A stretch of 5,130 nucleotides of DNA. It comes from Oscillospiraceae bacterium. GTDB lineage: Bacteria > Bacillota_A > Clostridia > Monoglobales > WRBX01. The position numbers were made by a program, and so were the translations under genes. Below, piece after piece: positions 761-3,559 of this stretch (position 1 is its first letter; every line of letters begins with the position of its first letter). The notes beneath the pieces are model-generated. The model saw only the letters and a program-made list of their open reading frames with translations, did no database searches and was not told where the DNA came from. Location: positions 1 to 5,130 of the forward strand of contig WRBX01000058.1 of the NCBI GenBank assembly GCA_009784335.1, in the 5' to 3' direction.

Positions 761-1333
761 CAAAAAGTATTCCTAGCATCGCGTTCGCCGAGAAGAAGCG
801 ATTTGCTCACCCAAATCGGCCTTGCGCATGAAATTGTTAAGCCTCATGTTCGCGAGGAACTGCTCGAGCATGAGCTTCCGCACGAGCTTGTGGCGCGATT
901 GGCTGCTGAGAAGCTTAATGTCGCCGCTAAGAAAATCAAGGATAAAGAGGGCATTATTATTGCCGCCGATACAATTGTTACATATGGCGGCGAGATTCTT
1001 GGCAAGCCGCGAAGCATGAATGACGGCGCGGCAATGCTGCAAAAGCTCTCGGGCAAAACTCACGAAGTGCTCACCGGATTTGCTATCCGTGATATAAAAA
1101 GAGATTATACAATAGTTGATTATGAGGCCACCACCGTGGAATTTAGAAAGCTCACCGATAAAGAAATCCTGAAATACTCTCGCCTAAACGAAAGCCGCGA
1201 TGCCGCAGGCAGCTATGCTATTCAAGGCGCCGCCGCAAAATTTGTCAAGCGCATCGAGGGCGAATATGCTAATGTGGTGGGGCTACCGGTGGGAAGGATT
1301 ATGGAAATACTTACTGAAGAATTTGATTATTAA
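758..1333 (+). CDS. maf: Maf family nucleoside triphosphate pyrophosphatase
   Basis: A 191-residue cytoplasmic protein, the usual Maf length when started at 758. Maf enzymes hydrolyse the alpha-beta bond of non-canonical or excess pyrimidine nucleotides to the monophosphate plus pyrophosphate, as house-cleaning. Overexpression of Maf blocks septation in Bacillus. Visible motifs in order are LASRSPRR (residues 6-13, phosphate-binding loop with Arg12), EK at 51-52, IIAADTIV with Asp71, GEILGKP (78-84), LSGKTHEVLTG (97-107), AAGSYAIQG with Gln156, and EGEYANVVGLPVGR (167-180). From memory, Arg12, Lys52 and a Gln in the xIQG motif mark the dTTP/UTP-hydrolysing YhdE-type subgroup rather than the m7GTP-type. 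The TAA stop overlaps the first bases of repeat E2. The gene sits upstream of mreB, as in many Bacillota, but without an intervening radC. Confidence 0.95.
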   Translation: MQKVFLASRSPRRSDLLTQIGLAHEIVKPHVREELLEHELPHELVARLAAEKLNVAAKKIKDKEGIIIAADTIVTYGGEILGKPRSMNDGAAMLQKLSGKTHEVLTGFAIRDIKRDYTIVDYEATTVEFRKLTDKEILKYSRLNESRDAAGSYAIQGAAAKFVKRIEGEYANVVGLPVGRIMEILTEEFDY

Positions 1334-1460
1334 CGAATAACGAATAAGTTATAACGAATAACTATTGTAGAAATACTACGCATTTCAGCTTTTATAAAAT
1401 CAAAAGAAATTCGAAGAATTTCATCAACAGTTATTCGTTATTCGTTATTACTTATTCGTT
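1332..1460 (+). repeat. Heptamer-arm hairpin element E2 (family II) between maf and mreB
   Basis: The left arm is AACGAAT, AACGAAT, AAGTTAT, AACGAAT (1332-1359) plus AACTATTG. The right arm, read as its reverse complement, is AACGAAT, AAGTAAT, AACGAAT, AACGAAT plus AACTGTTG, ending at 1460. The arms can pair to form a long stem. The core holds two small hairpins: A at 1370-1386 (GAAAT / ATTTC) and B at 1406-1422 (GAAATTC, loop GAA, GAATTTC). The 129-nt element fills the spacer from the maf stop codon to about 8 bases before the mreB ribosome binding site. There is no U-tract after the stem, so it is not a standard intrinsic terminator. It matches the reverse complement of E4 through the whole core. 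Confidence 0.9.
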
Positions 1461-1480
1461 TCGACCAAAGGGAGAAAATT

Positions 1481-2503
1481 ATGTTTAAAACATTCAACAA
1501 AGATATCGGTATAGATTTAGGCACCGCCAACTGCCTCGTGCATATCAAAGGCCGCGGGATTATTCTGCGCGAGCCCAGCGTTGTGGCGATTAACAAGCAA
1601 ACCAAAGAGGTGCTTGCCGTGGGCAATGAGGCCAAGAGCATGATTGGCCGCACACCGGGCAATATCATCGCCGTCCGCCCGCTGAAAGACGGCGTTATCG
1701 CCGATTTCGATGTCACCCAAGCTATGCTGAAATACTTTATTTCTAAGGCTATTCCCAAGGCTGCATTCAAGAAACCGCGAGTTATTGTGTGCATTCCCAG
1801 CGGCGTTACCCAAGTTGAGCGCCGCGCGGTTGAAGAGGCCACCCTCCAAGCCGGCGCCCGCGATGCTTACCTAATCGAGGAGCCCGTTGCCGCGGCTATC
1901 GGCTCCGGCCTGCCGATTGCCGAGCCCACCGGTTGCATGGTTGTCGATATCGGCGGCGGCACCACCGATGTTGCGATAATGTCGCTGGGCGGTATTGTCG
2001 TGGCCAAAAATATCCGTGTTGCCGGCGATAAGCTTGATGACGATATCGCGCAATATATTCGCGATAAGCATAAAATCGTGATTGGCGAGCGCACTGCCGA
2101 GGATTTGAAAATCAATATCGGCTCAGCGGCGCCGCTCGATAGCGAGCTTTCTATGGGAATTCACGGGCGCGATTTAATCGAAGGCCTGCCTGCCACTCGC
2201 GAAATCACTTCGGTTGAGATTCGCGAAGCTATGCTCGATTCGCTCACGCAAGTGATTGCTACTATTAAGAAAACCCTCGAAGAAACCCCGCCCGAAATCG
2301 CGGCAGATATCATGGATCGCGGCATTATGCTCACCGGCGGCGGTGCGCTGATTCGCGGCCTCGATAAGCTGATTGAGCAGGAAACCGGCATGCCGGTCTA
2401 CATCGCTCCCGACCCGCTTGATTGCGTGGTTATCGGCACGGGCAGGGTTATTGATGATATTGAGTACTTACATAGCGCATTGCTATCGAAGAAGAAGCAT
2501 TAA
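1481..2503 (+). CDS. mreB: Rod shape-determining protein MreB (actin-like)
   Basis: A 340-residue bacterial actin, full family length. It binds ATP, polymerises on the inner face of the membrane and orients the elongasome that builds the lateral cell wall. The actin-fold motifs are clear: phosphate-1 DIGIDLGTANCLV (residues 8-20), REPSVVAIN (30-38), CIPSGVTQVERRAV (104-117), EEPVAAAIG (133-141), phosphate-2 VVDIGGGTTDVA (154-165), and the adenosine motif MLTGGGALIRGL (283-294). The C-terminal DPLDCVVIGTG (311-321) is also typical. The start has a strong ribosome binding site, AGGGAG (1469-1474), six bases upstream. mreC and mreD directly follow, which argues for MreB proper rather than the paralogues Mbl or MreBH. 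The TAA stop is also the first three bases of element E3. Confidence 0.98.
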   Translation: MFKTFNKDIGIDLGTANCLVHIKGRGIILREPSVVAINKQTKEVLAVGNEAKSMIGRTPGNIIAVRPLKDGVIADFDVTQAMLKYFISKAIPKAAFKKPRVIVCIPSGVTQVERRAVEEATLQAGARDAYLIEEPVAAAIGSGLPIAEPTGCMVVDIGGGTTDVAIMSLGGIVVAKNIRVAGDKLDDDIAQYIRDKHKIVIGERTAEDLKINIGSAAPLDSELSMGIHGRDLIEGLPATREITSVEIREAMLDSLTQVIATIKKTLEETPPEIAADIMDRGIMLTGGGALIRGLDKLIEQETGMPVYIAPDPLDCVVIGTGRVIDDIEYLHSALLSKKKH

Positions 2504-2596
2504 TGAATAATGAATGATGAAGAATTAATAATGAATAATCTGGCAAATAGGCAAGATATTATTCATTATTCATCATTAATTATTCATTATTCATTA
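2501..2596 (+). repeat. Heptamer-arm hairpin element E3 (family I) between mreB and mreC
   Basis: The left arm is TAATGAA, TAATGAA, TGATGAA, GAATTAA, TAATGAA (2501-2535). The right arm, as reverse complement, is TAATGAA, TAATGAA, TAATTAA, TGATGAA, TAATGAA (within 2559-2596). Units 1, 2 and 5 pair perfectly and the middle units are divergent. The core at about 2536-2558 includes CTGGCAAATAGGCAAG and is shared in inverted orientation with E1. The 96-nt element starts exactly with the mreB stop codon and ends just before the mreC ribosome binding region. No terminator-like U-run follows. Confidence 0.9.
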
Positions 2597-2616
2597 AGAT
2601 TTTAAGAGGGATTAGT

Positions 2617-3447
2617 ATGAAATGGATAATGGATAACAAACTAATATCTGCCATAGTGCTTGCCACCATAATCCTGCTCACCGTCCTCGCTTTCACCACC
2701 GGCGAGCGAGCAAGGGCCAATTGGGGCAGCGATGGTGTGCAGATGATTCTGCGCCCTTTTGAGCAGGCGTTTACATGGACAACCAAGGGCGTCGGCGGCT
2801 TTTTCATGCACTTTGGCGATATTGATAAGCTGCGCGAGGAGAATAGAATTCTCGCCGAGCAACTGGCAAAAGCAGAGGAAGAGGCGCGCGAAATCACCAT
2901 CTATCGCGATGAAAATGAAGAGCTTCGCGCAAGCCTAAACCTTGCCAGCACTCTAAAGAGCGATAAAACCATCGTGGCAAACATTATCTCCAAAGATTTT
3001 TCTAATTATTATAGCTCGTTTAAGATTGATAAAGGCAGCAAGGATGGCATAGTTGCCAAAAAGAGCGTGCGCACGCCGGCCGGGCTGGTTGGCTATGTGA
3101 AAGAAGTGGGGTATAATTGGGCGATTATCACCACGGTGCTCAATAGCGAGAATTCGGTTTCAGGCATAGTGGGGCGCACCGGCGAGGCAGTGATTTGCAA
3201 GGGCGATTTTGCGCTGGCCAAAAGCGGTAAAATGCGCATCTCATATGTTTCTGACGATACAAGCTTAGTGCGCGGCGACATTATCCAAACCTCAGGCCTT
3301 GGCGGAATTTACCCTAAAGGCATCCTAATCGGCACTGTCGACGAAATCCACACCGATAGGCAAAGCGTTTCTGTTAGCGCCGCTTTATTGCCCGCTGTTG
3401 ATTTGGATAAGATTAGTGTGGTGCTTGTAGAAACGAATAACGAATAA
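2617..3447 (+). CDS. mreC: Rod shape-determining protein MreC
   Basis: A 276-residue bitopic membrane protein that links MreB and MreD to the wall synthases PBP2 and RodA. It has a short cytoplasmic N-terminus and one membrane segment (about residues 8-27). A charged coiled coil follows (about 68-110, rich in KLREEN and EELR). The extracytoplasmic beta-rich MreC domain runs from about 118 to 272. Family motifs include NIISKDFSNYYSSFKIDKGS (122-141), AGLVGYV (155-161), and GDIIQTSGLGGIYPKG (220-235) with GTVDEI after it. The start at 2617 has AGAGGG (2605-2610) six bases upstream. An in-frame ATG at 2629 is less well placed. The last four residues (TNNE) and the stop codon are encoded by the first heptamers of repeat E4, so the native C-terminus was probably replaced or trimmed at about VVLVE. 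Confidence 0.96.
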   Translation: MKWIMDNKLISAIVLATIILLTVLAFTTGERARANWGSDGVQMILRPFEQAFTWTTKGVGGFFMHFGDIDKLREENRILAEQLAKAEEEAREITIYRDENEELRASLNLASTLKSDKTIVANIISKDFSNYYSSFKIDKGSKDGIVAKKSVRTPAGLVGYVKEVGYNWAIITTVLNSENSVSGIVGRTGEAVICKGDFALAKSGKMRISYVSDDTSLVRGDIIQTSGLGGIYPKGILIGTVDEIHTDRQSVSVSAALLPAVDLDKISVVLVETNNE

Positions 3448-3559
3448 GTAATAACGAATAACTGTTGATGATTTTCTTCGAAAATCTTTTGAATTTTAAA
3501 AATCAGAAAGCGTAAGCTTTCTACCACAGTTATTCGTTATTCGTTATTACTTATTCGTT
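3432..3559 (-). repeat. Heptamer-arm hairpin element E4 (family II, core inverted relative to E2)
   Basis: The left arm is AACGAAT, AACGAAT, AAGTAAT, AACGAAT plus AACTGTTG (3432-3467). The right arm, as reverse complement, is AACGAAT, AAGTAAT, AACGAAT, AACGAAT plus AACTGTGG. In the core, hairpin B is at 3470-3486 (GATTTTC, loop TTC, GAAAATC) and hairpin A is at 3505-3522 (AGAAAGC, loop GTAA, GCTTTCT). The reverse complement aligns with E2 over the whole core with a one-base length difference. The minus strand is given because the core runs opposite to that of E2. The element starts inside the end of mreC and ends 5 bases before the mreD ribosome binding site. Confidence 0.9.

Follow-up and report, generated by a model that had tools for sequence, protein, structure and literature searches.

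Palindromic elements with matched base changes in the gaps of an mre operon are probably copies of a dispersed, non-coding DNA element

What do matched base changes in the stems of related palindromes tell us about how these palindromes are maintained? The question is raised by a stretch of 5,130 nucleotides from an Oscillospiraceae bacterium (contig WRBX01000058.1; the whole stretch is called the window below), in which six genes follow each other on the + strand: Gx (PF07456), maf, mreB, mreC, mreD and the start of a PBP2-type gene. Two palindromic elements, E2 in the maf-mreB gap and E4 in the mreC-mreD gap, share a core, and the original prediction, made from the letters of the window, held that the paired changes between them indicate selection on structure. 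We consider it probable (roughly 0.7) that E2 and E4 are copies of a dispersed, non-coding and probably mobile palindromic DNA element, of the type of repetitive extragenic palindromes (REP) and bacterial interspersed mosaic elements (BIME) or of miniature inverted-repeat transposable elements (MITE). The matched base changes are real, yet alone they are no proof that an RNA shape is under selection.

The plan of the element is two unlike 7-bp mini-hairpins, A and B, an A/T-rich linker, and inverted arrays of a 7-nt unit outside. E2 (1332..1460), delimited by the inverted repeats I3 and I17 and by the alignment of its core to E4, is assigned to the - strand by the convention that this is the strand where hairpin B precedes. 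Its left arm (1332..1362) is built of AACGAAT units with one irregular unit, AAGTTAT, and its right arm (1429..1460) of TTATTCG units, again with one irregular unit, TTATTAC. Between them lie hairpin A (1370..1386, - strand), with 7 bp including a G.T pair on that strand, a GTA loop and an adjoining GTAG (1367-1370), and hairpin B (1406..1422), GAAATTC-GAA-GAATTTC. E4 (3432..3559, + strand) is delimited by the inverted repeats I7 and I16 and is also matched by a profile built from copies in another genome, described below. Its left arm (3432..3462), which encodes the final four MreC residues and the stop codon, is followed by hairpin B (3470..3486, + strand; GATTTTC-TTC-GAAAATC), hairpin A (3505..3522, + strand; AGAAAGC-GTAA-GCTTTCT) and the right arm (3528..3559); a GTAG on the - strand (3521-3524) overlaps the outer two pairs of hairpin A.

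The arms of the two elements align directly (30/31 on the left, 32/32 on the right), while the cores align inverted. With E4 reverse-complemented, positions 1363-1428 and 3463-3527 align end to end, as had been claimed, with 52 of 68 columns identical. This alignment scores 35; the direct orientation scores 12, and 5000 dinucleotide shuffles reach 23 at most (mean 9.6, standard deviation 2.5). The hairpin core is homologous in E2 and E4. The pairing claimed for hairpin B also stands: GAAATTC-GAA-GAATTTC in one element faces GATTTTC-GAA-GAAAATC in the other, with two double changes and no broken pair. Hairpin A, compared as AGAAAGC-GTAA-GCTTTCT (E4, + strand) and GAAATGC-GTA-GTATTTC (E2, - strand), stays pairable on that strand, but the change is less clean than a single altered closing pair, since seven letters differ over four pairs (three double changes and one G-C/G.T). 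If the changes fell by chance among the 14 stem sites of a hairpin, all pairs would survive with p ~0.010 for the four changes of hairpin B and p ~0.0015 for hairpin A, both values being post hoc and taking changes as independent. The loop of hairpin A is 3 nt long in E2 and 4 nt in E4, and the register differs as well, so that an indel reading of this hairpin is possible.

The same core, with another arm 7-mer, is found again in a related genome, G374, where it occupies about 11 places, most of them intergenic. G374 had the closest MreC (44%, E 3.7e-68) among 391 genomes of one class; its order comprises 51 genomes. The search covered 1.19 Mb of G374 and gave 17 core or part-core matches at 10 places, plus one half-copy at C78; ten of the 11 places overlap no open reading frame (ORF) of at least 80 aa, and one overlaps the end of an ORF by 18 nt. 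The copies are laid out as arm, hairpin B (GATTTTC-TTAC-GAAAATC, the stem being that of E4), TTTTGAAT and an A-rich linker, hairpin A (GAATTGC-GTAA-GCAATTC) and arm, with arms of CCTGTTC; GTTG stands by hairpin A and hairpin B carries no tag. A profile built from 11 of the 17 matches, with the window excluded, finds E4 at E 0.0021 (19.5 bits; 2.76 Mb searched), while its next match beyond G374 has E 1.3 and the best of 200 shuffled windows reaches 8.6 bits. Strict 7-mer arrays number seven in the same 1.19 Mb, against none in a block-shuffled control, and six of the seven belong to the core family. Three copies in G374 (L110, L111 and L112) have longer flanks in common past the arms, of the type TTTCGGGGATT.ACTCCC, and may therefore have moved via larger duplications.

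Beyond G374 the signal is weak. When the DNA of E4 was compared with the 51 genomes of the order, nine had a match at E<=0.01: three matches in G374 (best E 3.9e-6) and one in each of eight others, at E 8.5e-4 or weaker, and no 7-mer arms were seen in the five of these eight that were inspected. A model built from E2, E4 and 11 G374 copies gave weak matches in 19 genomes of the order besides G374 (E 0.0026-0.48), with 7-mer arms, by eye, at only one of the 11 matching loci listed, in genome G468. Elements with ATTCATT arms occur in G468, and in one of them (L294) a pair of hairpins and a T-rich linker can be made out by eye. A weak model match in genome G224 (E 0.016) has a hairpin resembling hairpin A, GGCTTGC-GTAA-GCAAGCC-AAC, without 7-mer arms, and may be due to chance or a terminator. 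Exact-pattern or sampled searches elsewhere, which say nothing on absence, gave one plasmid record for E4 (31/128 bases, within an arm), no phage match for E4, no plasmid match for E6 (see below), two weak matches for E4 in 50 related genomes (E 0.0055 and 0.0096), and zero hits in viral contigs for each of four patterns (the linker, the inverted arms and two G374 hairpins).

Comparison between families and comparison within one family bear differently on the claim of selection. When E2, E4 and the G374 consensus are compared pairwise, every stem difference preserves its pair, and the palindromes are therefore kept at the family level. The tally within G374 omits an indel-bearing A stem (C79b) and every copy whose stem is truncated. 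Stem A, in 15 copies, has ten broken pairs, four one-sided changes that still pair and one double change; for stem B, the 13 copies counted give five broken pairs, two one-sided changes that still pair and no double change. Together, 15 of the 22 stem pairs that depart from the consensus are broken, six are changed on one side yet paired, and one is doubly changed. Uncompensated stem substitutions, which the original prediction had itself named as evidence against it, are thus present, and its inference to selection on structure is supported only in part. Hairpins that are intact in each family while resident copies decay fit a spreading repeat and not an RNA bound to its site.

The placement of the elements can be described for the whole operon. 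All five gaps of the window are filled by inverted repeats of short tandem units: E6 between Gx and maf, E2 between maf and mreB, E3 between mreB and mreC, E4 between mreC and mreD, and E5 between mreD and the PBP2-type gene. The last four gaps measure 147, 113, 127 and 114 nt, and E2 to E5 start no more than 16 nt past the preceding stop codon and finish 15-20 nt ahead of the following start codon. The gaps are short in two relatives: maf-mreB and mreB-mreC span 8 and 9 nt in G374, and in genome G266, where gene order served to name the gaps, the corresponding ones as far as mreD measure 43, 19 and 13 nt. No inverted exact 7-mer arrays were found in 80 mreB-neighbourhood loci of relatives (80 kept of 283 found, with MreB 58-66% identical to that of the window). 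By its proteins the window comes from an uncultured bacterium resembling Clostridia. Two MreC proteins, P0002 and P0003, are 70% and 72% identical to that of the window. A longer MreC tail was considered as a sign of insertion and ruled out, the tail of one relative, P0005, being equally long. Additionally, a half-element, E0 (225..295, + strand), lies in frame within Gx, with a hairpin at 236-257, adjoined by GTTG, and then four ATTCGTT units at 265-295. It adds about 22 residues to Gx, which are present in the near-identical P0121 and missing in all ten other aligned relatives.

The remaining elements follow the same scheme with other units; E0 to E6 together make up 719 of the 5130 bases. 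The unit is ATTCGTT in E2 and E4 and ATTCATT in both E1 (1..70; I2, D2), which is cut by the window edge, and E3 (2500..2597; I6). The core of E1 is the inverse of that of E3: the right arms align directly (43/46), and the cores agree at 25/30 inverted against 18/33 direct. E5 (4058..4153; I14 and its fold) has AGCATTT units around a hairpin, and E6 (619..745; fold), which runs from the end of Gx into the gap before maf, has units of 9-10 nt of the CGCAGATGC / AATCCGCGT type around a hairpin. The hairpin cores of E5 and E6 are unrelated, and their units differ from those of the other window elements. The idea that the irregular units keep a direct order in the left and the right arm alike was dropped, as there were too few independent elements.

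The orientation of core and arms thus differs in both pairs, E2/E4 and E1/E3, and this brings in a purely mutational explanation of the paired changes, in which template switching repairs palindromes and selection plays no part. DNA template switching between short inverted repeats is described as homogenising the arms and inverting the spacer (PMC8604942, in the portion consulted), and as yielding multibase compensatory changes (PMC8794818, likewise in part). Paired changes can therefore arise without selection, and both the adjacent double change in hairpin B and the inverted cores are of the kind that this mechanism would leave; recombination between the arms would flip the core too. Within G374, however, one double change stands against 15 broken pairs, so that the process lags behind decay. 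We regard an entirely mutational origin of the paired changes as a serious possibility that falls short of even odds.

As a mechanism for the dispersed DNA element, we propose spreading in trans, with the single-stranded hairpin as the likeliest mobile form. Spreading copies would need intact hairpins, while resident copies would be left to decay, and exchange between the inverted arms, by template switching or by recombination, may flip the core and could create double changes. Several observations weigh against such an element. E2 is not among the 45 of 146 G374-profile matches listed, and its tie to G374 therefore runs via E4. AACGAAT arms were found in none of 391 further genomes searched for inverted arms and none of 398 searched for one arm. 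In the flanks of the G374 copies, inspection by eye revealed no target-site duplication, and the core could be linked to no mobilising enzyme. Lastly, the flipping of the core may be fortuitous, as it rests on two pairs, which would agree by chance one time in four.

A more specific proposal is that the element is a GTAG-type REP pair (a BIME, or a REP doublet forming a hairpin, REPIN), moved by a REP-associated tyrosine transposase (RAYT) of the same genome, to which 7-mer arms have been added. In the parts of the literature consulted, REPs are palindromes of 20-50 nt preceded by a conserved tetranucleotide, mostly GTAG, and occur as short intergenic hairpins, in many cases paired with an unlike, inverted partner across a spacer (PMC3733652, PMC8266576); unlike partners are given as common in REP dimers (PMC3733652). 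The window has GTAG by hairpin A in both E2 and E4, hairpins A and B are inverse with a spacer between them, and the many, mostly intergenic copies of G374 agree with this type. The inverted 7-nt arrays outside the pair do not, nor do the lack of GTAG at hairpin B and the GTTG that takes its place in E0 and in the G374 copies.

G374 does contain one RAYT-like ORF (NF047646, E 4e-17), with the one strict 7-mer array outside the core family 12 nt upstream. The ORF scores below both curated family cut-offs (62.4 of 80 and 21.6 of 23), the GTAG palindromes within the gene differ in sequence, and a cognate RAYT flanked by the same repeat, as in a REPtron, is not seen, the adjoining 7-mer element being a different one. 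At this locus (L145, 1310-1965) the array is an ATTCATC inverted element immediately upstream of the ORF, and GTAG-GGGCGCA palindromes lie in frame and give repeated residues. Among 22 other RAYT-like loci listed, 7-mer-like units were seen upstream, by eye, at two only (L149 and L159). Of nine heptamer clusters in G468, a script finds one that directly adjoins a GTAG palindrome, and inspection by eye adds a second. Two G468 loci show heptamer-armed hairpin elements between or beside GTAG palindromes in a mosaic-like order (L293 and L295, the latter by script too). A RAYT-like enzyme is the leading candidate mobiliser, if a tentative one, and the REP pair in its strict form seems to us doubtful.

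A structured RNA or mRNA element, acting in operon processing or stability with its fold under selection, would account for the paired changes between families, for folds far more stable than those of shuffled sequences (z -7.5 to -8.6 on both strands of E2 and E4, which excludes chance for each fold as a whole), and for GNRA-like loops on one strand. The predicted multibranch fold with hairpins A and B is recovered only in part: in its minimum-energy RNA fold E4 forms both hairpins, whichever strand is folded, while E2 forms neither and, on either strand, pairs the 5' side of A to the 3' side of B. E2 and E4 stand in opposite orientations inside one operon, and on the + strand, which has the sense of the transcripts of all six genes, stem A of E2 has one A.C mismatch; these two facts favour the DNA level. 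A search of the window against Rfam gave no match at E<=1. Terminators of the mre operon were considered and ruled out, as the terminator-like matches of E0 and E4 are antisense. In the window the loops are GAA or GTA, with GTAA in E4; most of those in G374 are GTAA or GCAA, and some others, GTGG for instance, occur there. The loops are usually closed by C-G, and the GNRA-like loops of A and B lie on opposite strands. C-GNA-G and C-GNNA-G loops are unusually stable in DNA, and GNRA loops are stable in RNA as well; loop stability decides neither for DNA nor for RNA. The two orientations, the mismatch, the fold of E2 and the absence of an Rfam match, together with the broken pairs within G374, make an RNA function improbable.

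The arms raise a further question. Read outward from hairpin A, the window has the unit TTATTCG and G374 the unit CTGTTCC, with four of seven letters alike in the same phase, and each has an irregular unit, TTATTAC and CTATTAC (both comparisons by eye). If the arms of the two genomes are homologous, all units of both arms must have changed together; the arms may instead be independent and set around a common core. That the elements are invertible cassettes, whose two arms a copying process rewrites wholesale to a new 7-mer (TTATTCG here, CTGTTCC there) around a core that is kept and flips, so that the palindrome is regenerated and not inherited, is in our view a long shot.

Among other known repeats, the dispersed element shares with MITEs, as these are characterised in the sections consulted of PMC10969869, small size, A/T-richness, inverted ends, a mostly intergenic position and no coding capacity, and differs in that its ends are tandem 7-mers varying by genome, with no target duplication evident; no parent transposon with the same ends was seen, no systematic search having been made. 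The palindromic elements of Rickettsia, covered in the same part of that source, likewise insert in frame in genes, as E0 does in Gx, but E0 is far smaller and belongs to another phylum. The TAACTGA heptamer repeats of Beggiatoaceae and cyanobacteria are also tandem 7-nt units between genes and sometimes in reading frames; they form direct arrays, with 169 direct sets against one indirect in the excerpt consulted, whereas the arrays of the window face each other around hairpins (PMC4679880). The literature searched (titles and abstract openings) yielded no description of hairpin pairs flanked by inverted 7-mer arms. The short tandemly repeated repetitive sequences of cyanobacteria likewise consist of tandem 7-nt units in intergenic positions.

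Matched base changes, usually regarded as the best sign of a functional RNA, here have an equally good explanation at the level of DNA. The REP- or MITE-like element has its hairpin core in common between two related genomes while all of its arm units differ. In the window this element occupies the intergenic gaps of an operon on which cell shape depends, and it has entered a reading frame.

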